From Hanleya hanleyi (lineage: Eukaryota; Mollusca; Polyplacophora; Lepidopleurida; Hanleyidae): a DNA stretch of 64,000 nt. Location of the stretch: contig JAVTVY010045542.1 in the NCBI GenBank assembly GCA_036873755.1, positions 1 through 64,000 of the forward strand, read 5' to 3'. The position numbers and the translations under genes were made by a program. The notes under the pieces are model-generated. The model did no database searches, was not told the origin of the DNA, and worked only from the letters and a program-made list of their open reading frames with translations. This document shows positions 35,478 to 60,700 of the stretch, in pieces (within the stretch, counting starts at the first letter, position 1; every line of letters begins with the position of its first letter).

Positions 35478-35517
35478 TATACAAAGTGGGGAGAAAGTGC
35501 TTGTCGGAAATGAAGTG

Positions 35518-38829: not shown

Positions 38830-38842
38830 TTTTTCGTGTGGT

Positions 38843-39188: not shown

Positions 39189-39298
39189 GTACAACTAATG
39201 CTAGAACTCACAACTCTGCTCTTTTTATCTACCTCAGAGAACACAGACAAAGTCAACCATGCTGTGGTATTAATTCTTTTTATTATCCCCATCATCAA

Positions 39299-39336
39299 AC
39301 ACACACTCCAGCTGGGGGAGCCACTGTGGGTGTGTT
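39299..39336 (-). terminator. Conserved 3' hairpin H3 with AATAAA (minus)
   Basis: On the minus strand ACACACCCAC and AGTGTGTGT flank the loop CTCCCCCAG, and AATAAA follows (TTTATT at 39279-39284 on plus). It lies 4 bp after the ATPase stop, as H1 does in E1. Confidence 0.75.
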
Positions 39337-39340
39337 TACA

Positions 39341-39944: not shown

Positions 39945-40248
39945 GGTTCGAGCTGTATGCGCTTTCGTGGTAACCCGCTCTTGTAAATTTGGTACGAGTG
40001 AACTGGAGTGGTGGTGGTGGGTACAACGTCGGTCGTCGTTGTCTGTTCACTGTGAGTGATGATGGTGGTTGGTATAACGTCGGTCGTCGTTGTCTGTTCA
40101 CTGTGAGGGATGAAATTCCGTGGGTTTTCAGACGTAGTGGGTGTTCTTGGTGTAGGTGTGGGCTGTTTACTTGGTGTGGAGCTCGATGTGGCTTGTACAC
40201 GGGGTGTGGTGGTGGTGATGTCTGGGCTCGATACGGGGTTGACTGGTG
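39900..40248 (-). other. Ser/Thr/Pro-rich open frame overlapping the ATPase start
   Basis: In the phase one base off the small membrane gene, an open frame reads SSPDITTTTPRVQATSSSTP, then two copies of HSEQTTTTDV, then VHSYQIYKSGLPRKRIQLEP. E1 has a matching STP-rich frame ending in the same VHSYQIYKSGLPR block. It looks like a mucin-type ectodomain that may once have continued the membrane protein. It has no ATG of its own. Confidence 0.45.
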
Positions 40249-40437
40249 CTATCTGTAGACTGGTTTGACTGGTGGCTGGTGTTCTAGTTGGTTAAGTAGC
40301 GTGCTGACATAGGCTACGTCGTAAAACACACCTCCGTACAACACACTCAGCAGGGTTAGCACTATCATCACAAAGCCCACTTGCGCTTTGCGCGTTTTGG
40401 GAGACGCTGTGTTCAGAGGCAGCTGCTGTTTGTCCAT
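40249..40437 (-). CDS. Small single-pass membrane protein
   Basis: 62 residues, MDKQQLPLNTASPKTRKAQV, then a membrane helix (GFVMIVLTLLSVLYGGVF) and YDVAYVSTLLNQLE. An open frame extends upstream to 40551, but the TATA box (GGCTTTATAG, 40484-40493 on plus) lies inside it, so Met at 40437 is preferred. The gene is placed between integrase and ATPase in both E1 and E2. A frame change at the TAG stop leads into a Ser/Thr-rich stretch, so the protein may originally have been longer. A viral membrane or entry-related role cannot be shown. Confidence 0.6.
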   Translation of the reverse strand: MDKQQLPLNTASPKTRKAQVGFVMIVLTLLSVLYGGVFYDVAYVSTLLNQLEHQPPVKPVYR

Positions 40438-40483
40438 AGCACTGTGGTCGAACGTGGAATGAAGGATGACGGCAGTGTTGTCT

Positions 40484-40493
40484 GGCTTTATAG
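40484..40493 (-). promoter_or_regulatory. TATA box containing the integrase stop codon
   Basis: CTATAAAGCC on the minus strand. The TAA at 40488-40490 terminates the integrase frame and is part of the TATA box for the 40437 start. Confidence 0.6.
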
Positions 40494-41561
40494 TCGTTTC
40501 ATCTGATTGGAAGCGACCCAGGAATTGCAGGAACTGGGCCAGCCTTGCCATTTGACGAAATGAAACAGTTTGCCACGTCGACGTTCCGTTTTCAAAATCT
40601 ACTCCACCGTGTAGTAGTCTTACTGTCTTTTTACGACAGGCTGTAATTCCATCTCGTAAAACGTCCCTAGCAACGGTTCCCCTTGAAGATCTTCCAGTTC
40701 ATAGACTCGCTGCTGTCGCGGTAGGCGCCGTTCAATCAGGAAGTGCTCATCGCTCCAGTTGGGCAAGAAACTTTTCTCAAATTGACCTTTGACTTTACTG
40801 ATCCGTACAGGGTCCCCGACCTTGTACACCTCCTTCGTCGTTCGCTGCGATTGCCGGGGATACAAGACACGCCGGACTTGGGCTTCATTGCGTTGGGTCA
40901 CGGTAAAAGGGGGTCTCTCTATACTCCGGTGATAGGCTCGATTGTAACCACTCACAAGTTTCGGGAGAACATCGATGTACCGCCTTTTATTCTTATAGGT
41001 GAAATATTTATACATGCGGCCTTTGAATGTCCTGTAGAACCTTTCCACCACGGAAACCTTGGTCTCGTTGTACGTATGGAAGATAAACACCTTCTTGGCT
41101 TTCAGAAACTGTTGGAACGGTCTGTTGAGGAATTCCGTGCCTTCGTCGGTTTGCAAATAGATGGGTTTGCGCCCGGTCTTGAAGATGTCCTTGAACGCCG
41201 CTACGAGATTCGCCTCCGTTTTCGTCCGGATGGGTACCACTCACGCATACTTCGACAGGATATCAATGCCCGTCAAGATATACCGATTCCCATCGTTGTG
41301 TTTGGCAAAGGCGCTCATATCGACCAAATCCGCTTGCCATTGGGCATCTAGTCCTCCCACGATAACCCGGTTCCGTAAAAAATGGCGACGGGCAGTTCGA
41401 TGTAAGGTATAGGTATCTTGTTTTCTTAACCAATCTCGGACTTGAGCACGTTGTATCCCCTAGGGTTTGGCTGCTCGATAGAGAGCCGTCAATGCACTAT
41501 AGGCCGCCGGACTGTCGGGACTGTAGTATAAGTTATCCAACACCTTCTCCCAGCTCTTCAT
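40488..41561 (-). pseudogene. Polinton integrase, E2 copy with three nonsense codons
   Basis: Aligns end to end with the intact E1 integrase. ATG at 41561. Relative to E1 there is a CAG to TAG change (41460), TGG to TGA (41241) and CAA to TAA (40620). The longest open part (40620-41240) holds the second D (LQTDEGTEF) and the E (VVERFYRTFKG) of the DDE triad. The chromodomain follows the last stop and ends in the same KRL. All three stops are C-to-T type changes on one strand or the other. Confidence 0.9.
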
Positions 41562-41588
41562 GGTGACAAATGATGATGGACCCTGGCT

Positions 41589-42065
41589 CTATCGTTTATT
41601 TATAACGGGTATATCTTGGGCCGAAGTTTCTTTCTGATTTTCTTCGTTGGCTTCTGCCAGCACATTGTCCATGGTAAATGACCAGTCCAACTCGTCTGAT
41701 GACCGCTTGATAAGCACTTGATCCACATCTACCACGGCATCTTCCAATGCAGACCATAGATCAGGGTGAAGGGTAAAATACACTGTACCCCCATCTAGCC
41801 GAGCCAATTGAGCAAAGAAAGGGCCGCGTCGGATGTACACATCGTGACACAAGTGGATGAGGTCGCCGTCCAGTTCAGCAGACAACACCCGTTTGAATTT
41901 GGTCCAGCCCTCCTGGGACAGACGAATGTGGGCCGGGCACGGTTGTGTAGGGTCTGCATCACAGATGTCTCCCACCTCCTCCATGATATCGACCTTACCC
42001 GCATAAACGTGGAGGAAAACCTCGGGGGTCAAGCTGAGATACGCCAGTATTATATGCTCCGTCAT
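41589..42065 (-). CDS. Polinton gene B (paralogue of gene A), unknown function
   Basis: 158 residues, start MTEHIILAYLSLTPEVFLHV, with a CTCGTATTTATAG (TATAAATACGAG) box ~40 bp upstream. The core EGWTKFKRVLSAELDGDLIH, RRGPFFAQL, FTLHPDLWSALED is shared with gene A. An acidic C-terminus (EANEENQKETSAQD) follows. The last codons (VINKR) lie over the integrase TATA box (TTATAAATAA). A and B are tandem duplicates. Early expression and a DNA- or chromatin-related role are possible, but no family was recognised. Confidence 0.7.
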   Translation of the reverse strand: MTEHIILAYLSLTPEVFLHVYAGKVDIMEEVGDICDADPTQPCPAHIRLSQEGWTKFKRVLSAELDGDLIHLCHDVYIRRGPFFAQLARLDGGTVYFTLHPDLWSALEDAVVDVDQVLIKRSSDELDWSFTMDNVLAEANEENQKETSAQDIPVINKR

Positions 42066-42100
42066 GGTCAGTACGTGAATGATACCAGATTTGAGTGTCT

Positions 42101-42112
42101 CTCGTATTTATA
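42101..42112 (-). promoter_or_regulatory. TATA motif of gene B
   Basis: CTATAAATACGAGAGA on the minus strand, about 40 bp before the ATG at 42065. It lies in the last codons of gene A. Confidence 0.65.
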
Positions 42113-42638
42113 GGGAGAACCCCGTGAGATCAAAGGATCGGGTGGTCATGTCACCGAGTCTAGCCGGGTAATCAATGGCATCGTCGTCTGTCTCCGCTTC
42201 ATTGCTAGAAATTTGTTCATTGGGTTCTGCCGCCGCTTCTCTCAGGGCACGAGCCCACTCCAACTCGTCTGATGATCGCTCGTCCGGTGTAAACAGCTGG
42301 TCCACAATAGGCACCACTTTCTCGAAGGCTGTCCACAGATCGGGGTCTAGGGTGAAGCCTCGCGGAGGGTCTTGGTAACGGCCCAGGCGTGGGAAGAAGG
42401 GTCCACGGTGTACGTAGGTGGCATTGTCTATGTGGATGAGGTTACCGTCGAGCTCACCACTCAACACCCGTTTAAATTTGGTCCAGCCGTCACGGTGTAG
42501 CGTAACCGTATTCGATACGGTCTCAGCGCGCGACCAGCAAACATTTCCACGGTCTTCCACGAGGATGACTTTATCTTCATAGACGTGTAACCCCACCCGG
42601 GGTGTAAGGGGAAGGATGGCTCGTAGAACTGGTGACAT
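42108..42638 (-). CDS. Polinton gene A, unknown function, intact
   Basis: 176 residues, start MSPVLRAILPLTPRVGLHVY. The core is VILVEDRGNVCW, then RDGWTKFKRVLSGELDGNLI, HRGPFFPRLGRYQ, and FTLDPDLWTAFEKVV. The C-terminal third is acidic (SSNEAETDDDAID). It is paralogous to gene B just downstream and to the LINE-broken copy in E1. The duplicated promoter in front (42685-42696 and 42763-42774) is preserved between E1 and E2, so it is probably functional. No assigned domain; a small alpha/beta nucleic-acid-binding fold is only a guess. Confidence 0.72.
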   Translation of the reverse strand: MSPVLRAILPLTPRVGLHVYEDKVILVEDRGNVCWSRAETVSNTVTLHRDGWTKFKRVLSGELDGNLIHIDNATYVHRGPFFPRLGRYQDPPRGFTLDPDLWTAFEKVVPIVDQLFTPDERSSDELEWARALREAAAEPNEQISSNEAETDDDAIDYPARLGDMTTRSFDLTGFSL

Positions 42639-42684
42639 CGTTCACCCAATGATGAACGGTGACTGACACACCCTCTGACTGTCT

Positions 42685-42774
42685 CTCGTATTTATGGTCA
42701 GGTCCCTCGGTGACATGGTTGATCCAATGACGAACGGTGAATGACGCACACTGTGTCTGACCCTCGTATTTATG
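42685..42774 (-). promoter_or_regulatory. Tandem TATA motifs (CATAAATACGAG) before gene A
   Basis: CATAAATACGAGAGAC (42685-42696) and CATAAATACGAGGGTC (42763-42774), 78 bp apart on the minus strand. The flanking repeat includes GTCATTCACCGTTCGTCATT and an ATG in MSPRD context. A short leader frame starts between them. Confidence 0.68.
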
Positions 42775-42788
42775 TTGAGGTCCCACTG

Positions 42789-43106
42789 TCAATGCCACAG
42801 CGTCAGGGTCAATACGGCACAGACCATTACTAGGCCAACCAGCCGTCGCTGGTTGCGGCGTGAGCGCTCGTGGTCCATAGCCCGAGCATCAAGGATGGCT
42901 GTCATAGTCCAGTAGTGGTGAGTGATGACACCTCCGTGCACTCTGTCGAGGACCGCTTCTGTGAACTCTTTCAGGATCTGGCGTTGCCCATCGTTGTCGT
43001 CGCCATCTGCAAACATGGACGGAACCACTGCTCGGTAACCCGTGAGTGAATTAACCACGGTCGCATGCCGTAAAATGCGAGTCGCATAGGGATGGGTGTC
43101 CGTCAT
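42789..43106 (-). CDS. Small protein with C-terminal membrane helix
   Basis: 105 residues, start MTDTHPYATRILRHATVVNS at 43106, with TATA box CTATAAAACACG ~45 bp upstream (43150-43160). The middle part is polar/helical (DDNDGQRQILKEFTEAVLDR). An Arg-rich stretch (HERSRRNQRR) precedes a C-terminal hydrophobic helix, LVGLVMVCAVLTLTLWH, typical of tail-anchored proteins. First gene of the minus-strand unit in E2; not present in E1. Unrecognised. Confidence 0.6.
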   Translation of the reverse strand: MTDTHPYATRILRHATVVNSLTGYRAVVPSMFADGDDNDGQRQILKEFTEAVLDRVHGGVITHHYWTMTAILDARAMDHERSRRNQRRLVGLVMVCAVLTLTLWH

Positions 43107-43289
43107 GGCTCTGCAACCATAGGAATGGGGGTGTGGGATCCAGAGGGACGTGTTTTATAGACCATGTCACACATGCTCGTCTATACTTGGCTCTACGGGT
43201 GTAGTCCGTGATACGTACTATTCTGATTGGTTAGTCCAAAAAAGAGAGCAACAACAACAAAGATTACAGGTCAATCCTTTTATTATACG

Positions 43290-43500
43290 TGAATTGGGCG
43301 TGACCTGGGTAGGAAACATGATAGCAATGCATGTACTGACCTGTCTGTGGGGTTTTTTCCTATGTATGAGGGTCTGGGTGAATGGGGCGTGACCTGGGAA
43401 CATGATGGGTTTTTTCTATGTATGAGGGTCTGGGTGAATGGGGCGTGACCTGGGAACATGATAGGAATGTATGTACTGACCTGTCTGTGGGGGTTTTTCA
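43290..43500. repeat. ~55-bp direct repeats, GGGCGTGACCTGGGAACATG
   Basis: Three imperfect copies of TGAATGGGGCGTGACCTGG followed by AACATGATAG and a CTATGTATGAGGGTCTGGG block. Part of the divergent promoter region between the minus-strand unit and the plus-strand zinc-finger gene. Confidence 0.7.
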
Positions 43501-43504
43501 CAAT

Positions 43505-43617
43505 TTCGCTTACGTTCGTGTCTTTTCGGTGACGTCCGTGTCTTCGGCGACATCCGTGTCTTTTCGGTGACGTCCGTGTCTTTTCGGTGACGTCCGTATT
43601 TTTCGCTGACGTCCGCG
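43505..43617 (+). promoter_or_regulatory. Five GACGTCCGTGTCTTTTCGGT repeats upstream of the zinc-finger gene
   Basis: Five direct copies of a ~20-bp unit, each with a CRE-like TGACGTCC, end about 30 bp before the TATA box (GTATAAAG near 43645). An enhancer role is inferred from position. Confidence 0.5.
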
Positions 43618-43825
43618 CCTGCATCCGGGTACTTCTATGTAGGTGTATAAAGTGGGAATGTTGAGGGCATTGCTGCATTCATTGGCCTGCTTGACCTGAC
43701 CAGCCGGAACCTGCCTGACCAGCCTGAGCCTATCTCACGAGAGGAGCTACTTGCCTCACCAGTGCAACTTCACCAGCCTATCTGACCATAGCAGCTACTT
43801 GCCTGACCAGCCTGAGCCAACAGTC

Positions 43826-44935
43826 ATGGAGTCATCTCACCGAGCAAACCTTCTACAGCACCGTATTGGCCTCGTTGATGAGATGCAGCATGTGGCTGAT
43901 ATAAGTGATCTGCTTATGGTGGAAAACATAATCCTTAAACACGGTGTGGAAGATATCATGGCGGAGAAGACCTATATGGCAGGAAATAGCACCAAGATGT
44001 TCACTTGCACAACTTGCCAGAAGCAGTTTACTCACCTGGAAGATTTGCGACGGCACGAGTCCTCCATCCACAACGGCGCACGATATACTTGTATAACCTG
44101 CGCACGGTCATTTAATCGGGAGGATCATTTACTGCGCCACGAACGCTCATTCCACGAGGGGACGACGGAACAATGTAATGAATGTGGTCAACTCTTCAAA
44201 CGACCCAGTCAGTTAAGACGGCATCAGCGTTTGATTCATACCCCGTCTCTATGGTTTGGGCGACAACTTCCCACTAAAGAGGCACCCAGGAGGGTCAGAC
44301 CCAGTGAGCCCGGGGAGACGAATGCCACTGGTGATGCGATCACGGAGAGCCCGCCGATACCCACAGTTCAGAAGAGCCTAGATATCCTGCCAGTTTCTAG
44401 CATTACTGTTGCCAGTCATACGCTTGACGACATCGAACATTTTCTGGAAGATGCAGTGGATATTCCTAGCGATCTGTTACAGGACGCCCATCCAGTGAAT
44501 GACATCTATCGGCGCCAATGGCCCATGATACGGCACATTTTCCACCGTGATCGCCCTATTCCAGATATCTACAATTTCCCATTGACCGACCTCACCCGTC
44601 TGCGCAGCTACGTGGAAGCCATTTTCAATGACCAAGCTACGGTCTTCAGATTGAATGTCGCTTTCGGGTACATCTTACGTCACAAAGAGACGGACCAGTT
44701 ACGGTATTATTATGCCAGTAATAACAGCCATGTGTTTGACCAACCGTTCACCATCATTAACCGGGCGTCGCTAGAGACGATGCTGGAGAAACTGGACAAC
44801 GTGGATCCCTTGAGATGGGCACATCGTCAACGCCCCAACACACAATGGGTCGTAGAGAGGGTCACCAATGCTACGTTCTTCGTTACCAAGCTGACCGACC
44901 ACCCCCATCGGCTGAATGCGTCACCCTTGCACTGA
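43826..44935 (+). CDS. Polinton C2H2 zinc-finger protein with conserved C-terminal domain
   Basis: 369 residues from ATG 43826 (MESSHRANLLQHRIGLVDEM). A TATA box (TGTATAAAGTGG) at about 43645 sets the transcript. Three C2H2 fingers, all C-x2-C-x12-H-x4-H, lie at about 61-82, 89-110 and 117-138. A Pro/Ser-rich linker follows. The C-terminal domain (about 235-360) includes NDIYRRQWPMIRHIFHRD, NDQATVFRLNVAFGYILRHK, VFDQPFTIINRASLETMLEK, and RQRPNTQWVVERVTNATFFV. The E1 gene at 22592-23023 has the same domain without fingers. Probably a sequence-specific DNA-binding regulator or replication factor of the element. Fully open, unlike the structural genes. Confidence 0.8.
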   Translation: MESSHRANLLQHRIGLVDEMQHVADISDLLMVENIILKHGVEDIMAEKTYMAGNSTKMFTCTTCQKQFTHLEDLRRHESSIHNGARYTCITCARSFNREDHLLRHERSFHEGTTEQCNECGQLFKRPSQLRRHQRLIHTPSLWFGRQLPTKEAPRRVRPSEPGETNATGDAITESPPIPTVQKSLDILPVSSITVASHTLDDIEHFLEDAVDIPSDLLQDAHPVNDIYRRQWPMIRHIFHRDRPIPDIYNFPLTDLTRLRSYVEAIFNDQATVFRLNVAFGYILRHKETDQLRYYYASNNSHVFDQPFTIINRASLETMLEKLDNVDPLRWAHRQRPNTQWVVERVTNATFFVTKLTDHPHRLNASPLH

Positions 44936-45080
44936 TGAATAGCATAACATGCCGTATATACTCTCTATGTCTACATGCTGATCGTTGACTTGAGCTCTGT
45001 AAACATTAAATGTGACGGTGCGTTAAATAATAAAACATGATGTTTGATATTTCAATTTGTTTTGCTGTGAACATACTAAA

Positions 45081-45113
45081 CATACCCAGGGCGGCTCCCC
45101 CAGCTTGAGTATG
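45081..45113 (+). terminator. Conserved 3' hairpin H4 with AATAAA at 45130
   Basis: CATACCCA and TTGAGTATG flank GGCTCCCCCAGC. One stem mismatch. AATAAA lies 17 nt downstream, after the shared ATTGGGGATAATAAA. It ends the zinc-finger gene transcript. Confidence 0.7.
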
Positions 45114-45479
45114 ATGCAACATTGGGGATAATAAACTGTATAAACCTTGCTGAACTTGTTGTTGTTCACGACAACCGCTTTCCGCTATACTTGGATGAAA
45201 TATATACGCGGATGTGATATAGTGCCCTTGCACACTTCCGGATAACCCGCGCGAGCGCGCACTCGGCCGGAAAACCCGAGCGCGCGCGCTTCGGCCGGGC
45301 CGGGGAAAACCCGGATGTTGAAAATCCGGACCCTACGTCTACGGGAAAATTGGAACTCTTCTGTATTCGGAGGTAGTTTACTGAAACCGGAAGTGACGTT
45401 TGTGCGAACAACCCACACCACCAAACCATAACCATGGACCCATAGTGGTTGGTCAAACACACTCCCACGCATCCCCAAA

Positions 45480-46425
45480 ATGCCTGCTTTCTATACTACG
45501 ACCAGACTGCGGATGCGCAGACTATTGAACACGGACGAACCAGGAGTCCAGTCGGATGCTGCTTCACGAGAGCTTCAAAATAAGACATCATACGACTCCA
45601 TCGGATCCATAGTGACCCATGTCGGCGCCAAAATGTCTATTTCCATACCCTTGGTCTACTGCGCATGCGTAGAATGATGTCAGTTTTACGTCACATCCAC
45701 CCAGTCGGATGCTCCTTCACATATGCTTCACATTGATATCTCACTCGACTCCATCGGACCATTAGGGGCCTACCTAGACCCCAAAACATCTATGTCCATA
45801 CCCTTTTCCCATAATTCCCTGTCTGCGCATGGGGTGAACACGAACGACACACTAGTCCAGGCGCATGCTCCCTCACGAGAGCTTCAAAATAAGACCTTAT
45901 ACGACACCATCGGCCCATTAGGGGCTCCCTTAGATCCCAACACGTCTATTTCCATACCCTTTTCCCACAATTCCCTGTCTGCGCATGCGCAGAACGTCGA
46001 AAACGAACGACACACTAGTCCAGGCGGATGCTCCTTCACGAATGCTTCACATTGATACCTCACTCGACTCCATCGGACCATTAGTGGCTCACCTAGACCC
46101 CAAAACGTCTATTCCCATACCCTTTTCCCACAATTCCCTGTCTGCGCATGCGCAGAATGTTGACAACGGGCGAAACGCTAGACCAGGTGGATGCTCCCTC
46201 ACGAATGCTTCACATTGATACCTCATACGACTCCATAGGGCCACTAGTGGCCCACCTCGACCCCAAAACGTATATTTCCATACACTTTGTCCACCGCGCA
46301 TGCGCAGAATGACGATATTTCAACCCCACACCCAGCCCATCAGATGCCCCTTCACGAATGCTTCACTTTGATACCTCACTCGACCCAATCGGTCCACTAG
46401 CGGTCCCTACAGATTGCCGAACACT
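45480..46425. repeat. Subterminal ~150-bp tandem repeats with TGCGCATGCGCA palindromes
   Basis: About six units containing CTTCACATTGATACCTCACT, CGACTCCATCGGACCATTAG, CTAGACCCCAAAACGTCTAT, TTTTCCCACAATTCCCTGTC and TGCGCATGCGCAGAA. The unit matches repeats in the E3 arms (50100-50330, 51380-51620 and their mirror), E1 (24115-24250) and 63280-63600. The palindrome fits the NRF1 consensus. Confidence 0.85.
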
Positions 46426-46429
46426 CTCA

Positions 46430-46668
46430 CGAAAACCCACGGTTTTGGGACTACTTTCGGTCCGCGGCGGCAGACCGCATCACCGCCAGACCGCATCACC
46501 GCGGAGAAATACATGCTCCCAAGGTCACGCCCCATTCACCCAGACCGGAAGTGACGTCATATCTGCGCACAACACTCCTGCGCACACCGCCCCAATACCG
46601 CCCCATTTTTTGTTCTCGCGCTTGCGCAGTGAGGCGCCAGAGCGTCGAACGGTCCTTTGGTTACTACT
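46430..46668. repeat. E2 right terminal repeat
   Basis: Inverse of about 30979-31270: GCATCACCGCGGAGAAATAC, GACCGGAAGTGACGTCATAT, and AACACTCCTGCGCACACC match the left end. It ends TTACTACT at 46668. It lacks the octamer seen at the E1 and E3 ends. Confidence 0.65.
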
Positions 46669-49441: not shown

Positions 49442-49877
49442 TTTGACGTTATTCACACTATTCTCATATATAATAATTAACGAAGCAATAATTCATTCCA
49501 TCGAATATAGTTGCAAATGAATTCAAACGCGCTTGAAGACAGTATTGTCATGTGAGATCGGAGGTTGAAAAGAAAAGTGTGGCAGAGATCACACTCTCTT
49601 AGCGCATGCGCATTTCAAAAAGTCACAAGAACAAGAACAACAACAACAACAAGAAGAAGAACAACAACGCGAGCCTCCCGTAGACCTGCGTGCCGCAGGT
49701 AAAAATGTATTTTAAGTTGGTTTCATCGGACCGTTCTGCTCAATCTGATGACCGTGTGTCATGTTGACTATCCCAGAGCCTGCTCCAAATCTGACAAGAG
49801 CGCGTTCACTCTCCAAAAAAAGCGCTTCTTTTCCTAAGAGGGCGAGTAGTATATAAAATGGAAATTCCTTATTATTT

Positions 49878-49885
49878 ATGCAAAT
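49878..49885 (+). promoter_or_regulatory. Oct-1 octamer at nt 34-41 of the E3 left end
   Basis: ATGCAAAT within ATTTATGCAAATGAGATG. Mirror copy ATTTGCAT at 57682-57689, also 34-41 nt from its end. Same spacing in E1. Confidence 0.6.
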
Positions 49886-50099
49886 GAGATGAATTTGTGG
49901 AGCATGTGTGGAGCTCTCGTCCAATCAGAAGCGAGTATTTCAAATCCGTCACAGAGCTCTCGTCCAATCAGAAGCGAGTATTTCAAATTGACCAAAAAGC
50001 TACCTCCAGCACAGGAGAGTTCCAATTTTTCCAGGTCAAAAATAGTTCCATGTATTCATCCGCGGTGATGCGGTTTTGGTGGTGATGCGGTCTGCTTCC

Positions 50100-51620
50100 G
50101 CGGAGAAAAAGTAGTCCCTAAATAAAATGGTCCGATGGGGTCGAGTGAGGTATCAAAGTGAAGCTAATGTGAAGGGGCATCTAATGGGCTGGGTGTGGGG
50201 TTGAAATATCGGCATTCTGCGCATGCGCGGTGGCCGAAGGGTATGAAAATAGCCGTTTTGGAGCTAGGGGATCCCCTAATGGGCCGATGGAGTTGTATGA
50301 GGTATCAAAGTGAAGCCTATGTGAAGGGGCATCCAGACATGGGTGGGTGCATGTAAAATTTTTCCTGAAAAAAAAAAATACGGAACACGGACTTTATCGA
50401 AAAACCTGGGAAAATGCCTATATGGGGTATGGGGGGTATATAGGTCGCCGGGCTTAACGGGGCTTGCCTATCAATAGAGTTATCTCCCCCTAGTTCCAGG
50501 GTGGGTGTATGTAAAATTTTGCCTGAAAAAATACGGAATACGGACTTTATCCTAAATTACGGGAAAATGCCTATATGGGAGGTATAGGATGGTATAGGAT
50601 CAATGTTTGTCCCCCTGGGAAACCTACTTCTCGACATTTGCGGTATGGGTTGTGGGGTCGCGTTTTCTTAGTCTCGTCATTTAGAACATGATAGGAAGTG
50701 TCCCGGCACGAATCGCTGAAATTTTTGAAAATAGTCACCGAGCCCCATATAGGCCCATACTGGGGTATAGGATCAATGTTTGTCCCCCTGGGAAACGTAC
50801 TTCTATACATTTGCGGTAGGGTTGTGGGGTCTCGTTTTACTCGTCTCGTCAAGACAAACATGATAGGAAGTGTCCCCGTGCGAATCGGTGAAATTTTTGA
50901 AAAAGTACGATATAGCCCCATATAGACATATATATATAAATATATATTCCCATACTGGGGTATAGGTTCAATGTTTATCCTACTGGGAAACCCACTTCTA
51001 TACATTTGCGGTAGGGTTGTGGGGTCTCGTTTTTCTCGTCTCGTCATGTAGAACATGATAGGAAGTGTTGCGGAGCGAATCGGTCAAATTTTTGAAAAAC
51101 AGTCATCAAGGCCTGGGTAGGCCCATAGGCCTATACTGCATGGCTATGGGTGTATAGGGCCATACGGGGTGGACATGTTGGAGTCTAGGTGAGTCCCTGG
51201 TGGTCCAATGGGGTCGAGTGAGGTCTTATTTTGAAGCTCTCGTGGAGGAGCACTTGACTAGTGTATTGTTTGTTTTCAATAGTCTGCGCATGCGCAGACT
51301 GGCCCGTAGTATAGAAAGTAGGCATTTTGGGGGTATGTGGGTGTGTGTTTGGGTTAGAGATGGGCTATTCACGGTTCGAATGGGTCGTGTGAGGTATCCA
51401 TGTGAAGCCTAGGTGAGGGAGCCTCTGATGGCGTGGATGTGGGGTTGGAATATCGGGATTCTGAGTATGCGCGGTGGTCAAAGGGTATGAAAATAGCCGT
51501 TTTGGGAGCTAGGGGAGCCACTATTGGTCCGATTGGGTCGAGTGAGGTATCAAAGTGAAGCATTCGTGAAGGGGCATCTGATGGGTTGGGTGTGCGGTAG
51601 GAATATCATTCTGCGCATGC
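50100..51620. repeat. Subterminal repeats in the E3 left arm
   Basis: Includes several GGTCGAGTGAGGTATCAAAG units, TGCGCATGCGCA palindromes (near 50219, 51285, 51610), and three ~130-170 bp repeats around TAGGATCAATGTTTGTCCCC and GGTTGTGGGGTCTCGTTTT (50575-51070). The peptide frame across 50571-51056 repeats because of these units. The mirror lies at 55945-57460. Confidence 0.8.
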
Positions 51621-51965
51621 GCAGACGCAATGCGGAGCTCTCGTCCAATCAGAAGCGAGTATTTCAAATCCGTCACAGAGCTCTCAGCCAATCAGAAGCG
51701 AGTATTTTGACCCGGTGCATTATGGGACATATCCAAGATGGCGGCACGTATGTTCAAGATGGCGGCACATCCGGTGTCGAAAACTGGCCATTTCTTCGGG
51801 ATGTGGTCACCTAGTGTCGAAAACTGGACCCTGTATGGGTCCCGCTAGCGCCTTGACGCCATGATATAGACCGGAGAGAGAAAACAACAACAACAAGGAT
51901 GACACATGAGGGAACAACAACAACAACAAGTTTTTTTTCATATAGTTTATTTTCCCCTCCATCAT

Positions 51966-52002
51966 AACATACCCACGCTGGGGGAGCCGCGTTGGGTATG
52001 TT
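51966..52002 (-). terminator. Conserved 3' hairpin H5 with AATAAA (minus)
   Basis: On the minus strand AACATACCCAACGC pairs with GCGTGGGTATGTT (13 bp, one bulge) around GGCTCCCCCA. AATAAA follows (TTTATT at 51946-51951 on plus). It ends the C2H2 gene at 52152. Confidence 0.8.
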
Positions 52003-52151
52003 TACAATTCAAGAAAGACTCTTGTCCAATCAGAGACCGCCATTTGCATCTGTCCTATTCGTTCCTGTCCGTTAGATGTATTCTTGTCCAATCAGAAGTC
52101 GCCATTTCAGAGAGTTCCTTCTTCGGTCATGTTCATTCTGAACCGTTTATT

Positions 52152-52724
52152 CTAATCATCGTCGGACAGGCCTGGATATTCTTCGGGCAGCATGTCCTGA
52201 AACAGTTGTTTGCGCATTCTGATCGCATTTTCCAGGGCCTCGGTGGGTGGTAAACCCATATCCTCTTCCAAGTGACGCTTGGTCTTCATGATGGACCTGT
52301 GCGTGGGGTCCCCTTTCATTTCAAGCGGTAGTAAGGTATACTGTTCATAGATCGCCATGGCTGTTTTCCTGATGCGGGGGCGCATTTGGGTGTACGTCTG
52401 TTGTAAATTATCCTCTCCGGCGTCCTCGATCGCTTCAGCGTGAGTATTGATAGCTGCTGTCACAATACGATCCCAGAAGGTAGGTTCTGCCTCACTTTCC
52501 TGGGATGAAGGCTGATTCTCTGAGGTCAAGCTCTCCATATCAGTAGATAGACTGTCAGCCATCTTGGATTCGGTATCAGTCGATGCACTCTCATCAATCT
52601 CTGTATCAGTATCTGCCTCAACGGGCTCCTCGGCGTCTTCAGTCCCATGTATATTTTTCTGGTGTCGCATCATATCGTAATGTCTGGTGAACGTGCGTTC
52701 ACACTCAGAACAAGTATAAGCCAT
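52152..52724 (-). CDS. C2H2 zinc-finger/acidic protein, E3 left copy
   Basis: 190 residues from ATG 52724 (MAYTCSECERTFTRHYDMMR). A TATA box (CTATAAAAGCGAG, about 52763-52775) sits 40 bp upstream; the longer open frame crosses it. One C2H2 finger (5-26), an acidic Ser/Thr/Glu/Asp-rich linker (about 30-80), and a helical C-terminal domain follow: FWDRIVTAAINTHAEAIEDA, MRPRIRKTAMAIYEQYTLLP, THRSIMKTKRHLEEDMGLPP, EALENAIRMRKQLFQDMLPE. The C-terminal domain resembles the neighbouring 52949-53326 protein, so the two are paralogues. Likely a DNA-binding regulatory or replication protein. The right-arm copy differs at two or three positions. Confidence 0.75.
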   Translation of the reverse strand: MAYTCSECERTFTRHYDMMRHQKNIHGTEDAEEPVEADTDTEIDESASTDTESKMADSLSTDMESLTSENQPSSQESEAEPTFWDRIVTAAINTHAEAIEDAGEDNLQQTYTQMRPRIRKTAMAIYEQYTLLPLEMKGDPTHRSIMKTKRHLEEDMGLPPTEALENAIRMRKQLFQDMLPEEYPGLSDDD

Positions 52725-52762
52725 GTTGACGGTTGAACGTCGACTGCGTGTTTTGGGAATAC

Positions 52763-52775
52763 GCTCGCTTTTATA
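52763..52775 (-). promoter_or_regulatory. TATA box of the E3 C2H2 gene
   Basis: CTATAAAAGCGAGCGTATTC on the minus strand. The same promoter survives in E0 (30930-30972). The mirror lies at about 54788-54802. Confidence 0.7.
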
Positions 52776-52948
52776 GACAGTAACGCCCATCAACGCTTAG
52801 CTCAACGCTTCAACGCCCTGGTGAATTAGCTCAGAAGCTCTGATTTCATGGAATTGACACCAATTCATCGAAATGCAGTGACGCCCGTCAACGCCCGTCG
52901 TTACGCCTTAACGCTCGTCTCAACGCTTTAACACACTTTCTTAATGCT

Positions 52949-53480
52949 TTAACGTTGTTTAATGATGCGTTCGAACAAATGTTTCTTTTGTGCTATTGCT
53001 CTGACATACGCCGCTTTCCAGTTCATGCCCGAGGTTTTCAACATCGACGCTGTTCTTTCAATTTCCATATGGACTGGGTCCTTATCCAACAATTTCATAT
53101 GGGTCAGTAAGTCGACATACTGCTGACGTAAAGCCCGTCGTAGTCTGGGTGCCAATCTGTTATGGGCTAAAATTGCAGCTTCCTCTTTCGAATACCCTTT
53201 GCGTTGAAACTTGTTTCCTGTGGCCTCCAAAATCTCGCCCATCTCGGCGTCCATACTTTCTTTGAACAAATCCTTCCATAGCCTCGAGTTCACATTATGT
53301 TCTTCAACCTCGGGTTGGGCCTTCACGGTTGGGTGATATTCCGGGACTGATGGTATGAAGCGGACCCGCTGTATGGGGGTGGGCTGCTGCTGCTGCTCTG
53401 CCAGGAGTGGACTCGGCGGATGGTGTAGGGGTATATGCCGTTGTGGTGATTCCTCGCCGGGTAACAGGTGGGTCGTCAGC
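52949..53480 (-). CDS. Helical domain protein downstream of the ATPase, E3 left copy
   Basis: No ATG is apparent at the front. The open frame runs from inside the ATPase C-terminal region (phase shifted by one base), through a Gln-rich AEQQQQPTPIQRVRFIPSVP, then VKAQPEVEEHNVNSRLWKDL, NRLAPRLRRALRQQYVDLLT, DPVHMEIERTASMLKTSGMN, AIAQKKHLFERIIKQR to TAA at 52949. It shares its C-terminal domain with the C2H2 protein next to it. Because its frame also continues the conserved ATPase C-terminus, the ATPase and this domain may once have formed one protein. Confidence 0.6.
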
Positions 53481-54156
53481 CGACGATCTTCGGGGTATGG
53501 GCTTTTAAATCTACGAACAGGTAGCCGTACGGACGAATTGTCGCTTCTTGAAACGCCCGCATAAAATGGTCAATGTTCTGAGGATAAATTCGACTACCAA
53601 ACACACGGATTTGTGCTCTGTCAATGGGATTGGAGAACAACACAAAGTATTGGCAGTTCAAGGCAATATCTCTGGACGCCTTCCCTTGAGGAAAGAGATT
53701 CTGAGTCAAATAGATGACGGACAGATTGCGATGATGGGACCCTTTGGTGAATAGGTCGGCGATTTTCGAATTGTCCTTGGCCGCACTCATCAGATCATCG
53801 AGCACTACCACGTTGGTCTGCTCGGAATCGAAGTAATAGGGTTCGTCTATGTCGTGAGGAATTCCTGGGACAAAGCTCACATTCTGTAACCTTGTAGTTT
53901 CGTAGGCGGGCTGCCATTGGCTATAACACCAAACAACACGTGTCGGAGCTGGGGTTGCCACACCTCCCTCTAAGAACTTCATCACCCAGGATGTCTTTCC
54001 ACACCCTGTAGGGCCGCTCACCGTCATCGTATAGGGATGCTCTACTGCTCTTGTTGGACCTATAGCGGGACTCGGCTGTGTCTCTTGGTTGTGTTTGCGT
54101 TGAATGTGCCTGAGCATACTATTGCGACGAGAGAATGCTCTCTCACAGAACGTACA
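53476..54156 (-). CDS. Packaging ATPase with N-terminal C2H2 finger, core of E3
   Basis: Divergent FtsK/HerA packaging ATPase. The first ATG is at 54117 (MLRHIQRKHNQETQPSPAIG), but the frame is open upstream. It includes CTFCERAFSRRNSMLRHIQR then KH, a good C2H2 finger whose first Cys codon spans the arm junction (54154/54155). Walker A SGPTGCGKTSW, Walker B NVVVLDDLMS, RVVWCYSQWQ, and IYLTQNLFPQG are all present. The frame ends HTPKIVG at 53476, about 25 codons earlier than the E1/E2 proteins. A one-base slip at the CCCC run near 53490 would continue EDRRLTTHLLPGEE, so the end is probably frameshifted. The 5' end was cut when the palindrome formed. Confidence 0.8.
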   Translation of the reverse strand, partial: CTFCERAFSRRNSMLRHIQRKHNQETQPSPAIGPTRAVEHPYTMTVSGPTGCGKTSWVMKFLEGGVATPAPTRVVWCYSQWQPAYETTRLQNVSFVPGIPHDIDEPYYFDSEQTNVVVLDDLMSAAKDNSKIADLFTKGSHHRNLSVIYLTQNLFPQGKASRDIALNCQYFVLFSNPIDRAQIRVFGSRIYPQNIDHFMRAFQEATIRPYGYLFVDLKAHTPKIVG

Positions 54157-54169
54157 CTCCTGGCAGAGC

Positions 54170-54615
54170 AGCAGCAGCAGCCCACCCCCATACAGCGGGT
54201 CCGCTTCATACCATCAGTCCCGGAATATCACCCAACCGTGAAGGCCCAACCCGAGGTTGAAGAACATAATGTGAACTCGAGGCTATGGAAGGATTTGTTC
54301 AAAGAAAGTATGGACGCCGAGATGGGCGAGATTTTGGAGGCCACAGGAAACAAGTTTCAACGCAAAGGGTATTCGAAAGAGGAAGCTGCAATTTTAGCCC
54401 ATAACAGATTGGCACCCAGACTACGACGGGCTTTACGTCAGCAGTATGTCGACTTACTGACCCATATGAAATTGTTGGATAAGGACCCAGTCCATATGGA
54501 AATTGAAAGAACAGCGTCGATGTTGAAAACCTCGGGCATGAACTGGAAAGCGGCGTATGTCAGAGCAATAGCACAAAAGAAACATTTGTTCGAACGCATC
54601 ATTAAACAACGTTAA
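54170..54615 (+). CDS. Helical domain protein, E3 right copy (5' end chimeric)
   Basis: Same protein as 52949-53480, identical from LAEQQQQPTPIQRV onward. Upstream of the junction the open frame (to ATG 54037) runs antisense through the ATPase gene, so those ~40 residues are not homologous and probably not native. No ATG exists in the duplicated part before FKESMDAEMGEI. Confidence 0.55.
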
Positions 54616-54836
54616 AGCATTAAGAAAGTGTGTTAAAGCGTTGAGACGAGCGTTAAGGCGTAACGACGGGCGTTGACGGGCGTCACTGCATTTCGATGAA
54701 TTGGTGTCAATTCCATGAAATCAGAGCTTCTGAGCTAATTCACCAGGGCGTTGAAGCGTTGAGCTAAGCGTTGATGGGCGTTACTGTCTATAAAAGCGAG
54801 CGTATTCCCAAAACACGCCGAGGTTCAACCGTCAAC

Positions 54837-55409
54837 ATGGCTTATACTTGTTCTGAGTGTGAACGCACGTTCACCAGACATTACGATATGATGCGACACC
54901 AGAAAAATATACATGGGACTGAAGACGCCGAGGAGCCCGTTGAGGCAGATACTGATACAGAGATTGATGAGAGTGCACCGACTGATACCGAATCCAAGAT
55001 GGCTGACAGTCTATCTACTGATATGGAGAGCTTGACCTCAGAGAATCAGCCTTCATCCCAGGAAAGTGAGGCAGAACCTACCTTCTGGGATCGTATTGTG
55101 ACAGCAGCTATCAATACTCACGCTGAAGCGATCGAGGACGCCGGAGAGGATAATTTACAACAGACGTACACCCAAATGCGCCCCCGCATCAGGAAAACAG
55201 CCATGGCGATCTATGAACAGTATACCTTACTACCGCTTGAAATGAAAGGGGACCCCACGCACAGGTCCATCATGAAGACCAAGCGTCACTTGGAAGAGGA
55301 TATGGGTTTACCACCCACAGAGGCCCTGGAAAATGCGATCAGAATGCGCAAACAACTGTTTCAGGACATGCTGCCCGAAGAATATCCAGGCCTGTCCGAC
55401 GATGATTAG
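54837..55409 (+). CDS. C2H2 zinc-finger/acidic protein, E3 right copy
   Basis: 190 residues from ATG 54837, TATA box CTATAAAAGCGAG about 40 bp upstream. Nearly identical to the left copy (one visible change, SASTD to SAPTD). Both copies are open, so both could be expressed. The hairpin and polyA signal follow at 55559-55615. Confidence 0.75.
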   Translation: MAYTCSECERTFTRHYDMMRHQKNIHGTEDAEEPVEADTDTEIDESAPTDTESKMADSLSTDMESLTSENQPSSQESEAEPTFWDRIVTAAINTHAEAIEDAGEDNLQQTYTQMRPRIRKTAMAIYEQYTLLPLEMKGDPTHRSIMKTKRHLEEDMGLPPTEALENAIRMRKQLFQDMLPEEYPGLSDDD

Positions 55410-55558
55410 AATAAACGGTTCAGAATGAACATGACCGAAGAAGGAACTCTCTGAAATGGCGACTTCTGATTGGACAAGAATACATCTAACGGACAGGAAC
55501 GAATAGGACAGATGCAAATGGCGGTCTCTGATTGGACAAGGGTCTTTCTTGAATTTTA

Positions 55559-55595
55559 AACATACCCAACGCGGCTCCCCCAGCGTGGGTATGTT
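55559..55595 (+). terminator. Conserved 3' hairpin H6 with AATAAA at 55610
   Basis: Mirror of H5: AACATACCCAACGC/GCGTGGGTATGTT around GGCTCCCCCA. AATAAA begins 15 nt after the stem. Confidence 0.8.
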
Positions 55596-57722
55596 ATGAT
55601 GGAGGGGAAAATAAACTATATGAAAAAAAACAAACTTGTTGTTGTTGTTGTTCCCTCATGTGTCATCCTTGTTGTTGTTGTTTTCTCTCTCCGGTCTATA
55701 TCATGGCGTCAAGGCGCTAGCGGGACCCATACAGGGTCCAGTTTTCGACACTAGGTGACCACATCCCGAAGAAATGGCCAGTTTTCGACACCGGATGTGC
55801 CGCCATCTTGAACATACGTGCCGCCATCTTGGATATGTCCCATAATGCACCGGGTCAAAATACTCGCTTCTGATTGGCTGAGAGCTCTGTGACGGATTTG
55901 AAATACTCGCTTCTGATTGGACGAGAGCTCCGCATTGCGTCTGCGCATGCGCAGAATGATATTCCTACCGCACACCCAACCCATCAGATGCCCCTTCACG
56001 AATGCTTCACTTTGATACCTCACTCGACCCAATCGGACCAATAGTGGCTCCCCTAGCTCCCAAAACGGCTATTTTCATACCCTTTGACCACCGCGCATGC
56101 GCAGAATCCCAATATTCCAACCCCACATCCACGCCATCAGAGGCTCCCTCACCTAGGCTTCACATGGATACCTCACACGACCCATTCGAACCGTGAATAG
56201 CCCATCTCTAACCCAAACACACACCCACATACCCCCAAAATGCCTACTTTCTATACTACGGGCCAGTCTGCGCATGCGCAGACTATTGAAAACAAACAAT
56301 ACACTAGTCAAGTGCTCCTCCACGAGAGCTTCAAAATAAGACCTCACTCGACCCCATTGGACCACCAGGGACTCACCTAGACTCCAACATGTCCACCCCG
56401 TATGGCCCTATACACCCATAGCCATGCAGTATAGGCCTATGGGCCTACCCAGGCCTTGGTGACTTTTTTCAAAAATTTCACCGATTCGCTCCGCAACACT
56501 TCCTATCATGTTCTACATGACGAGACGTGAAAAACGAGACCCCACAACCCTACCGCAAATGTATAGAAGTGGGTTTCCCAGTAGGATAAACATTGAACCT
56601 ATACCCCAGTATGGGAATATATATTTATATATATATGTCTATATGGGGCTATATCGTACTTTTTCAAAAATTTCACCGATTCGCACGGGGACACTTCCTA
56701 TCATGTTTGTCTTGACGAGACGAGTAAAACGAGACCCCACAACCCTACCGCAAATGTATAGAAGTACGTTTCCCAGGGGGACAAACATTGATCCTATACC
56801 CCAGTATGGGCCTATATGGGGCTCGGTGACTATTTTCAAAAATTTCACCGATTCGTGCCGGGACACTTCCTATCATGTTCTAAATGACGAGACTAAGAAA
56901 ACGCGACCCCACAACCCATACCGCAAATGTCGAGAAGTAGGTTTCCCAGGGGGACAAACATTGATCCTATACCTCCCATACCCCATATAGGCATTTTCCC
57001 GTAATTTAGGATAAAGTCCGTATTCCGTATTTTTTCAGGAAATTTTTTACATACACCCACCCTGGAACTAGGGGGAGATAACTCTATTGATAGGCAAGCC
57101 ACGTTAAGCCCGGCGACCTATATACCCCCCATACCCCATATAGGCATTTTCCCAGGTTTTTCGATAAAGTCCGTGTTCCGTATTTTTTTTTTTCAGGAAA
57201 AATTTTACATGCACCCACCCATGTCTGGATGCCCCTTCACATAGGCTTCACTTTGATACCTCATACAACTCCATCGGCCCATTAGGGGCTCCCCTAGCTC
57301 CAAAACGGCTATTTTCATACCCTTCGGCCACCGCGCATGCGCAGAATGCCGATATTTCAACCCCACACCCAGCCCATTAGATGCCCCTTCACATAAGCTT
57401 CACTTTGATACCTCACTCGACCCCATCGGACCATTTTATCTAGGGACTACTTTTTCTCCGCGGAAGCAGACCGCATCACCACCAAAACCGCATCACCGCG
57501 GATGAATACATGGAACTATTTTTGACCTGGAAAAATTGGAACTCTCCTGTGCTGGAGGTAGCTTTTTGGTCAATTTGAAATACTCGCTTCTGATTGGACG
57601 AGAGCTCTGTGACGGATTTGAAATACTCGCTTCTGATTGGTATCGGACGAGAGCTCCACACATGCTCCACAAATTCATCTCATTTGCATAAATAATAAGG
57701 AATTTCCATTTTATATACTACT

Positions 57723-60700
57723 AGGGCGCTTTGGCTGAACAGCGTGTAGTGGCTGAAAGCATGGACGATCGGAATGGCAGGAGGGAGACAGCCCTGTTTG
57801 AAGGTTGGCATTAGCTTTTATGGTGAAAGTTTATGTGGCTATATTTCATTGGTTGATTAGCGCGTGGTCCGTGTTATTTTTGTATGGCTATATTTCATTG
57901 GTTGATTAATACGGACCGTGTTACTCACCCTTGCCAATCTACAGACATGAAAACAGTTTTAAAAATACCAAAAACCAAAAACAAAACAAAAAAACCCCAA
58001 CCGCCTGATAAATACATAAATACAGAAAGATGAAATGGAAAGCGAATATTGAAAATGTTTTTTCATGACCATACTCCAAGCCATTGGGAAGAAATCGCCG
58101 AAAGACTGACAAGGGCTGGACAATTTTGGTTAGTCAGATGATCCTATCTGGCCTGGGCTACTTGGGACCTGTCCAGGCCTGATTTTATCCCCCACCCCCT
58201 CGTAAATATATTTCTTATCCCTTGGGCTATGGGACTGAAACTTACCACAAGCTCTACCAGAAAATGTAAAAAACCCATTTTTGACGTAATTTTCAAAAAT
58301 GGTATTTTTTGGTCGAGTTTTTGGTCAGATTTTTCCAATTTTTCGTTTATGTATTTTGTTAAAAAAAAATGCCTAATAAATTAGTAAATAATAATCTGTT
58401 GTGAAACAAAATAGTTTTTGCCCAATTTCTCTCACAGAAAAGAAGGAATTTTGAAGAAAAACGACGAAAATCTCACTTTTCTGATACCCCCACATGGCCA
58501 CCATTCTGAATTTACCCATGATCCTATGCAAATTGTGTGTGTGGGGGGGGGGCTGGGAGAGTATGGAAATAGGCTCAAAATGACCCCAATATGATAAACT
58601 ACAAAGTCACGGGGTATCAGCCCTCAATGTTTTGCCGTTCCGGAGATAGGCCTGGCAGGGTTAAAGCAAACCATGGGCGCTTGGGAACCCGATATAGTGT
58701 CGAGGTACAAGAGTATAATAAGGGAAGAAATTGAATATTAATGAAGTATATGGGCGATTGCCTTTAATCCGATCACCAAATCGAAAGCATATTTACAAAT
58801 ATACACAATTGCTGCCCCTGTTGAAGTATGAAAGTGAAGAAAGATTCATCTACTGCCCATGTCATTGTGATGGTATTCCGCCCTAGTCCGCTGTCATGTA
58901 GTCCCGTCCTCTAAAACTGGGTGTTCATCAATTCTACAAATTCTGGAAAAGAAAGGCAATATGTTTGGTTTAAACTTCTATCATAACATTAAGATTTAAC
59001 TGAGTGGTATTTTTAATGGCCTAGTGTGTCGCGGATTTTGAATGGATTATCATGTGATATTCTCAATTAAAATTAAATAATACACAGATATAGTGCTGTT
59101 ATATTCCTTAACATGATTTCATGTGGATGCTTGGCGTGGATGTATGATAATATTGTTTGTCACGCATTTGCATCATATATTTCAATATCTGGCACGCATC
59201 GTGACTGCTTCTCTCCTAATACAAGAAATGCAGATGTTCATCTGTGTTATTATTTCAAATTTGCTTGGATTTTTTTTTCTAATATTGTAATGTTCGCACC
59301 CAACATTCGACCGTGAAACGAAAATCTGCACACTGGGGTGCTACGGTCGGATGTAGGGTGTGATGTTCTTCTAGCGACGGCGGCCTACTGACTGTCGAAT
59401 CTGAAGCTTGTCTTTAAGGTAGACCCCTGTTCATTGTGTACGTTGGTGGTCATTGTCGGTGTTTTTACGTGTTTTTCCTAGTAGGTTATCTCCCTTCCTG
59501 GGTCAACAGATGGGGATTTCACTTGTGAATTTTACGCAATCACATCCATCCAATATAATATAGATTTTGATAGACATTGTGATTATATTCAAATAGTTGA
59601 ATATAAGAAGTTAAATAATATTTCTATGATTTTTTCAAATCAGGATTCTAGAGCTAACAAAAAGGCACGAACCTATGAATGTTTCTTTGCTTTCCCTCAT
59701 ATTACAGAAATATGAATGCAAAAACACACATTATTCAAATATTAAATACTAGTATATTTACTTTAAAGCAAGTTATTGTGCATAAATTGCCATACTCGAA
59801 AACTTTTGTTTTGTATTGGAATTATTTGTTCCTGAATGATGCCTCAACAACATAACAGGGGGTATGGTCTGCAAAACAGCATCTTACCGAGCTGAGGGAA
59901 TTCCTCGTTTCATTTCATAATATTGTACAGAAGTGTCTATGTAAATTGGCGTGATATTGTACAAATCCAGGGAGGTCACTCGTCTAACTTACTAGTTTGT
60001 GCACGGTTTGGGGTTATATCCCATCGATCGTATTTGAGGGTTAATGTAGATTAATGCAAAAAGAGATAAATTTATAAACATTTAATGTTCATAGGACCGC
60101 GCAATAATTTAATCCTGATCATACTAAATGTGTTAACTATATATGTGCAAGTACAGAATGTCACATGCACAGCAAATGAGTCATCGCCAATGACACTAAA
60201 TCTTTAATTCTGACAATGGGAGGGCACGAAACGTTCACCATCGCCTATCGATCCATCCATACAGGTCGATGACCATATTACTGCAGGTTGTCTTATTTCT
60301 GATCATTATTATTAACTTTCTGTACATATATCTCGTGAATTATATCTATTTTTGTATTTGTTTTGAACATATGTCGAACATCTCTTGGGAGCAATTTCGT
60401 TTTAGTTTTAGTGGTTCGGCTTTTTAGGCATATCAAATTTAAAGATTTACCAGAATTTCCAAACGAAATAAATTATTATCCTATCAACGCCATCCAATTG
60501 TGTATATAGCGACATATACAATTGAGGAGCGTTGAGAGGCAATTAATTCATGTAGATAGCTGATATCCATCTCAGAGTGTAAAATCAGTACCCTTCGTAG
60601 ATTTCCGCTCGAAATTTCCGCATGAATTGTGCCATGGCAAATAGCTCAGAGCAAATCTGCGCCGTGTTCCTGGGATCCATCTTTGCATACAAATTTCTTT

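Follow-up and report, generated by a model that had tools for sequence, protein, structure and literature searches.

A multi-copy family of palindromic Polinton-type elements around a shared hairpin-like centre in Hanleya hanleyi

We analyzed a 64,000-nt stretch of the Hanleya hanleyi contig JAVTVY010045542.1 (hereafter the window), in which the element at positions 49845-57722, named E3, forms a nearly complete palindrome. It was found that E3 is not a one-off but a member of a multi-copy, mobile, palindromic Polinton-type family in the same genome. E3 and four siblings are bounded by perfect 6-bp duplications and have closely similar arms, a hairpin-like tip is shared at the centre of many copies, and E3 itself carries a central junction that is unique in the genome. 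Our preferred reading, with a rough probability of 0.75, is that the family is non-autonomous and replicates through hairpins driven by a helper, that its members integrate as linear palindromes, and that E3 underwent a private central deletion. Within this reading, we infer the helper dependence and the hairpin replication.

E3 and its palindromic siblings

The inverted arms of E3 are approximately 3.57 kb long (98.94% identity over 3,578 BLAST columns) and surround a 745-bp single-copy core, giving a total length of 7.9 kb with an identical terminus at both ends (AGTAGT//ACTACT). The inverted match extends to the element's last base and no further, and copies of AGGGCG were located directly outside at 49839-49844 and 57723-57728. 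Between the 600-bp flanks, only short words at the level of chance were in common (best E 1.8). Between the cleanly aligned arms, 20 substitutions and 6 indel events were counted, for 26 difference events. The first-pass annotation, made from the letters of the window, had proposed this inverted duplication, the perfect duplication outside both ends and intact C2H2 genes in each arm, and all three were confirmed, with an open 190-aa C2H2 gene in both arms. Its identification of an integrated palindromic Polinton-type element likewise held. Two separate elements joined end to end were considered and rejected, as equal duplications would then arise by chance at 3.4e-4, the probability that two random 6-mers of the window are equal. 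The features of E3 are as follows.

49839-49844: left copy of the target-site duplication, AGGGCG, abutting the left element end
49845-53409, plus strand: left arm, the native half, contiguous with the core; the ATPase gene passes from the core into this arm
49845-49858, plus strand: left terminus, AGTAGTATATAAAA, with the Maverick end motif AGTAGT (motif as given in the part of PMC8097293 drawn on here)
52152-52724, minus strand: C2H2 protein gene of the left arm, 190 aa, open frame
52949-53326, minus strand: C-terminal part of the ATPase gene, resembling a separate small gene (blastp to the C-termini of ATPase relatives)
53410-54154: single-copy core of 745 bp with the ATPase domain, between the arms
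53476-54117, minus strand: open part of the A32/FtsK-HerA-type packaging ATPase; its start codon is missing owing to the 54154/54155 junction, and its frame is disrupted ahead of the C-terminal part
54154-54155: E3-specific junction, read as a central deletion with the 3-bp microhomology CAC; its 28-mer was found once in the genome
54155-57722, minus strand: right arm, inverted copy of the left arm (BLAST and alignment)
54238-54615, plus strand: inverted duplicate of the C-terminal part of the ATPase, lacking its ATPase domain (coordinates mirrored from the left arm)
54837-55409, plus strand: C2H2 protein gene of the right arm, 190 aa, open frame
57709-57722, minus strand: right terminus, AGTAGTATATAAAA on the minus strand, the same terminus as at the left
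57723-57728: right copy of the target-site duplication, AGGGCG, abutting the right element end

We searched the window's own genome (2.48 Gb, 52,793 contigs) with the core. With the best 40 of 3,359 candidates scored, 40 full-length matches including E3 were recovered, along with 4 partial ones. The 39 matches other than E3 lie at 38 places, as two belong to one element. All 38 places were sampled: 20 were covered by stretches of 5.6-9.9 kb, and the other 18 by 0.2-1.5 kb taken outward from the core (L-numbers beyond L001-L003 denote stretches taken from this genome). A second inverted arm was present at 30 of the 38 places, comprising 15 of the 20 longer and 15 of the 18 shorter stretches. 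Six stretches reached a contig end first (L015, L016, L029, L047, L053 and L057), of which L053 still has both halves of the tip, and the remaining two were cut or interrupted (L012 and L018). The centre of L012 is interrupted by long open reading frames (ORFs) that we take to resemble a long interspersed nuclear element (LINE) reverse transcriptase. Many siblings carry both ATPase copies around a common centre lying further out than the junction of E3. Further siblings show central asymmetries of their own (L019, L020, L022, L024, L028 and L048), as would be expected if palindrome centres are unstable.

An artefact of the assembly or library, produced by fold-back reads, would fit the many contigs that end at or near a palindrome centre (L015, L016, L029, L047, L053, L057, L062, L063, L065, L066, L072 and L073). 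However, the inversion in E3 stops exactly at the element end beside the duplication and differing flanks, the 26 difference events separate its arms, and many contigs agree, so that we regard such an artefact as hardly credible.

The shared tip and the private junction of E3

Past the start of the ATPase gene, the siblings contain a promoter-like stretch and CCA-rich repeats, followed by a tip in which all but a few bases are palindromic. The exact tip was encountered in 10 of the 20 longer sibling stretches. Two centres were folded as DNA, and each gave a stem with a 4-nt loop and a 7-nt bulge that scored better than all of its 200 shuffles. A 30-mer of the tip, allowing at most 2 mismatches, matched the genome 165 times on one strand and 179 times on the other, while the reversed control gave 0 and 0. 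Because only 2 bases distinguish the 30-mer from its complement, most places were counted twice, corresponding to approximately 170 places.

Twenty tip places were hand-picked among the matches listed. The two sides were at least 92% alike at 16 of them, six of which lie at contig ends and were compared over just 28-325 bp (L062, L063, L065, L066, L072 and L073), and unlike at the other four (L059, L061, L069 and L077). The core of E3 was carried by 8 of the 20, and the other 12 had different arms, some with multi-finger C2H2 genes related to the window ORF 43751-44935. Among the four unlike places, L069 and L077 have E3-type sequence on both sides with unequal deletions. In L059 and L061 the tip stands between unlike arms, with a CCA-repeat arm on one side of L059 and a multi-finger C2H2 gene on the other, and these two are possibly non-palindromic parents or recombinants. 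It was also noted that L067, L068, L070, L071, L072, L074, L075 and L076 are palindromes around the same tip whose arms hold long microsatellite-like repeats and no ATPase gene. The arms of L066, L073, L078 and L079 carry multi-finger C2H2 genes like the window ORF 43751-44935, and L078 and L079 extend outward into sequence 81-88% like parts of the E3 arm.

E3 differs from its siblings at its centre. The siblings read GAACGTA followed by CACGTACACG past the zinc finger and GAGTC followed by CACTCCTGG at the arm side, and E3 reads GAACGTA followed by CACTCCTGG across its junction. The bases CAC at this junction form a 3-bp microhomology between two points of a sibling-like palindrome, and the 28-mer across it has one occurrence in the genome. 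Judged by these sequences, the junction is best read as a private central deletion that removed the tip and the second ATPase core, and not as the birth of the palindrome. The deletion is the simpler reading because the junction is unique in the genome and the microhomology joins two points of the sibling palindrome; it would be later than the formation of the palindrome.

The gene content at the centre bears on the same question. The 125-aa ORF beside the core matched, by blastp of its open frame, the C-termini of at least four ATPase relatives, P0045 (3e-10), P0009, P0087 and P0043, and in 12 of 20 sibling loci the ATPase and the 125-aa part form a single ORF of 400-415 aa. By these alignments, the ORF is not a separate gene but is the C-terminal part of the ATPase. 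Because the two form one gene, it is with the left arm that the core is natively continuous, which makes the right junction the secondary one.

It had been claimed that the palindrome was born at the zinc finger of the ATPase, where one half of a non-palindromic parent was copied to replace the other. This claim was not upheld, since the siblings have both arms, and many of them both ATPase copies, around a centre further out, and the junction is unique. The genome was searched for other copies with the same arm junction and none was found, the 28-mer occurring once, and the search for a non-palindromic parent gave no clear one among the 38 core copies, with L018, L059 and L061 noted as possible exceptions. 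The observation that the right arm starts inside the first Cys codon was accurate in the frame of E3 itself, where the junction splits a Cys codon, but the siblings have another Cys and a start codon upstream. The proposed analogy with symmetrical defective genomes is plausible for the ancestor of the family and implausible for E3 itself.

A single snap-back at the zinc finger, in which half of an ordinary Polinton replaced the other half before integration, is weighed here as an unlikely origin. The same product would be expected from it, namely the arms, a 745-bp loop and short microhomology, and L018 leaves room for a former non-palindromic form. Fold-back inverted duplications are also known in human chromosomes, with spacers of 766-70,466 bp and 2-8 bp of microhomology at 13 of 21 sequenced junctions in the part of the study drawn on here (PMC3907307). 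Against it stand the lack of a clear non-palindromic parent among the 38 sampled core copies and the siblings that keep both arms, and in many cases both cores, around the outer centre.

Integration as a palindrome and a proposed life cycle

We sought both ends of the palindromes, which could be read in nine including E3. Five carry perfect and mutually different 6-bp duplications (E3, AGGGCG; L019, TTCGCC; L022, TGCCAG; L020, CACGGT; L026, TGGGAT). Over the outer 1.5 kb, the two arms of an element were 98.9% alike in E3, 99.5% in L019, 98.6% in L022 and 98.4% in L020 (12, 24, 80 and 298 gap columns, respectively), and the arms of L026 were 99.2% alike over the outer 250 bp. Between elements, the outer 1.5 kb averaged 75% identity with 750 gap columns (60 pairs). 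Variants at the ends were largely private to one element and common to both of its ends. From these shared end variants and the likeness of the arms, the integrated unit was likely a palindrome in which one arm had recently been copied from the other. The first-pass annotation had drawn from the AGGGCG duplication alone that the palindrome itself was the integration substrate. This is most likely the case, the evidence being the five different perfect duplications on five palindromes; the single duplication of E3 is insufficient proof, since conversion in place between terminal repeats would keep it.

Such an origin in place would have break repair copy one half of a normally integrated Polinton into the other and finish in the terminal repeat opposite, and the original duplication would be retained. 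It is very improbable, however, as separate events would be needed at tens of loci with the same centre each time, five different perfect duplications occur on palindromes of one family, and the arm differences of E3 show no excess at the ends (3 in the outermost 400 bp, 16 in the next 1,255 bp). These differences follow a gradient from the ends to the centre (P 0.009-0.02), and none falls in the innermost 666 bp (52746-53409 and 54155-54818; P 0.005-0.008), which may reflect constraint or recent conversion. The gradient and the inner deficit are partly a contrast between coding and non-coding sequence (P 0.04-0.08), and no gradient was detected within the non-coding part of the arms (P 0.23-0.26).

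Under our preferred reading, a full member consists of two inverted halves, each with a terminus, repeats, a C2H2 gene, a packaging-ATPase gene and a promoter, meeting at the conserved hairpin-like tip. A helper Polinton, invoked on account of the missing genes, would supply polymerase, capsid and integrase, and its protein-primed polymerase would initiate at either of the identical ends. The displaced strand could then fold into a hairpin of half the element length, a panhandle of the whole genome, and copying round the tip would restore the duplex palindrome, keep the arms alike and rebuild both arms from one. The integrase would insert the linear palindrome with a 6-bp duplication, and in E3 a private central deletion with 3-bp microhomology would have taken the tip and one ATPase core. 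Integrase and ATPase genes adjoin E3 in the window, in the neighbouring element E1 and in the 38.8-42.6 kb region, with rve integrases in E1 and near 40.6 kb, and the right terminal 48 bp of E1 are 87.5% like those of E3.

Several observations weigh against this reading. No helper, polymerase step or episome was observed. Four of the nine palindromes lack a matching duplication (L023, 4/6 bases; L028, 1/6; L021, 3/6; L031, 3/6); their ends are less alike (L023 96.6% and L028 86% over 1.5 kb, L021 90% over 87 bp, L031 92% over 250 bp), and they may be recombinants. Some pairs of different elements are 93-96% alike where aligned, led by L023/L028 at 96.2%, with E3/L023 at 93-94% and more than 900 gap columns. 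The gene part of the arms gave a near-star tree in which many partner arms are not nearest neighbours; in this tree the arms of E3 are nearest each other by distance, and those of L013 group with a support of 0.99. The arms of L017 differ by 8.9% in the gene part, one of them being 7-9% diverged from its partner and from other arms. L018 is cut just past the tip and continues into repeats and reverse-transcriptase-like sequence (L018:4990-9300), and it is the sole copy that might be what is left of a non-palindromic form. Its continuation is common to the E2 region of the window at 31681-32001 and 36144-37123 (the latter 94% over 982 bp), and no integrase, polymerase or capsid genes were recognised among its ORFs of at least 80 aa. 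The copies were also selected by likeness to the E3 core, with 18 of the 38 seen over just 0.2-1.5 kb. Finally, the terminal repeats of ordinary Polintons are also alike within an element, and arm likeness alone does not require hairpin replication.

We hold doubtful a reading in which the copies are non-autonomous Polintons of the ordinary kind, with terminal inverted repeats that have expanded to cover almost the entire element, the usual panhandle exchange keeping the arms alike and the central hairpin having no role. Alike repeats are expected within any Polinton. Kilobase terminal repeats are known in polinton-like viruses, a survey of which retained elements whose repeats ranged from 100 bp to 8 kb in the part drawn on here (PMC12220804). 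However, many copies have kept the tip, and it recurs in palindromes whose arms are quite different, a pattern suggesting that the tip has a role or is the mark of a recurrent process. We also consider, tentatively, that each integrated palindrome is an inverted dimer, either of a satellite or of segments of a divided Polinton genome, whose free form would be a linear DNA of half the length, closed by a hairpin at one end and integrase-competent and protein-primed at the other. The tip would then be a hairpin telomere common to several segment types with different genes.

Genes, neighbouring elements and known systems

A homology search with the core ATPase returned 2,121 homologues; among the 120 matches listed, identities were 43-57% and many carried PF04665 or PF02456. 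The Pfam scores of the E3 ATPase itself were under the curated cut-offs. Its predicted structure had a mean predicted local distance difference test score (pLDDT) of 81, with Foldseek matches to the STIV2 B204 packaging NTPase and viral A32-like ATPases, and a C2H2 finger starts a few residues past the start codon in several relatives. The E3 copy of the gene is broken, with its start lost and the frame out of register before the C-terminal part, and open copies occur elsewhere in the genome. No integrase, polymerase or capsid genes were found among the ORFs of E3 of at least 80 aa (three ORFs scanned against Pfam).

The ratio pN/pS, computed from distinct variants against the E3 sequence with gapped codons omitted and with tree structure and transition bias ignored, was 0.33 for the ATPase (22 nonsynonymous to 19 synonymous variants and 2 stops in 27 rows picked for E3 likeness) and 0.43 for the C2H2 gene (52 to 31 and 4 stops in 35 rows), with a binomial P of approximately 5e-4 for each. 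This pattern of variants suggests that both genes worked during the spread of the family. It was noted that the C-terminal part of the C2H2 protein resembles that of the ATPase (52152-53326), each having a match to P0045, as would be seen in a paralogue of the ATPase that lacks its ATPase domain. Neither the C2H2 protein nor the C-terminal frame of the ATPase gave a match in protein searches, and no relatives emerged from IMG/VR when it was scanned with the ATPase, an alignment of ATPases, the C2H2 protein and the integrase of E1. In the searched genome contig collection, a 29-base end pattern had no match, and L001-L003 from that collection hold ATPases 36-43% identical without inverted repeats at E 1e-5.

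Other elements are present in the window. E1 (17649-25077) is Polinton-like, with AGTAGT ends, terminal repeats of approximately 0.4 kb that are 80% alike, an rve-chromo integrase and an A32-like ATPase; its flanks GAGATT and GAGGTT are equal at 5 of 6 bases, and it has no long inverted arms. An E2-like region (27588-46668) opens with AGTAGTATATAGAC and has a possible right end near 46668, where GACAAT on the right against TACCGG on the left gives no duplication. By their motifs, ORFs of E2 resemble a capsid protein of Polintons and a reverse transcriptase of the Penelope type, with no Pfam match past the cut-off. The left end of the window (1-4877) consists of tandem arrays with spacings near 43, 36 and 40 bp.

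Symmetrical defective adenovirus genomes carry an inverted duplication. E3 resembles them in the inverted duplication of one end, the identical termini and the palindrome around a short centre, but here we encounter a heritable family, in which the centre is conserved, the genes are constrained and the copies are chromosomal. Poxvirus hairpin telomeres and concatemer junctions have a palindromic junction with a few unpaired bases. The tip of the family is similar to them in this respect, although neither a resolvase nor closed ends were seen here. Left-end DNA in the incomplete particles of adenovirus is described in the part of a review drawn on here.

E3 shares with Polintons and Mavericks the AGTAGT//ACTACT ends and an A32-like packaging ATPase with an N-terminal C2H2 finger, and perfect 6-bp duplications occur in E3 and in 4 of the 8 other palindromes with both ends read. 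Intact vertebrate Mavericks have (AGT)2//(ACT)2 ends, 6-bp duplications, repeats of 46-1,447 bp and total lengths of 12.7-24.6 kb in the part of the survey drawn on here (PMC8097293), whereas E3 has repeats of 3.57 kb and a total of 7.9 kb. The retroviral-type integrase, protein-primed PolB and major and minor capsid genes of an autonomous Polinton or Maverick are not among the E3 ORFs of at least 80 aa. In yeast, origin-dependent inverted-repeat amplification (ODIRA) is described as converting hairpin-capped linear DNA into an inverted dimer that is later integrated, the inverted dimeric plasmid integrating by homologous recombination (PMC4689423, in the part drawn on here). In contrast, the Polinton family would insert by an integrase-type reaction with target duplications. 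A palindromic Polinton family was not found among the open-licence papers listed, judged by titles and abstract openings.

These results indicate that a virus-like DNA transposon can be maintained in the form of a self-palindrome, with a seemingly constrained packaging ATPase and C2H2 gene, in E3 without a polymerase, integrase or capsid gene. If the half-length hairpin form is real, it would describe a Polinton life cycle with a telomere-like end, and a tip that is indeed a hairpin end would give Polintons a second kind of genome end. The many copies in one genome offer a natural record of protein-primed genomes forming, keeping and losing palindromes, which are otherwise known from defective virus stocks.

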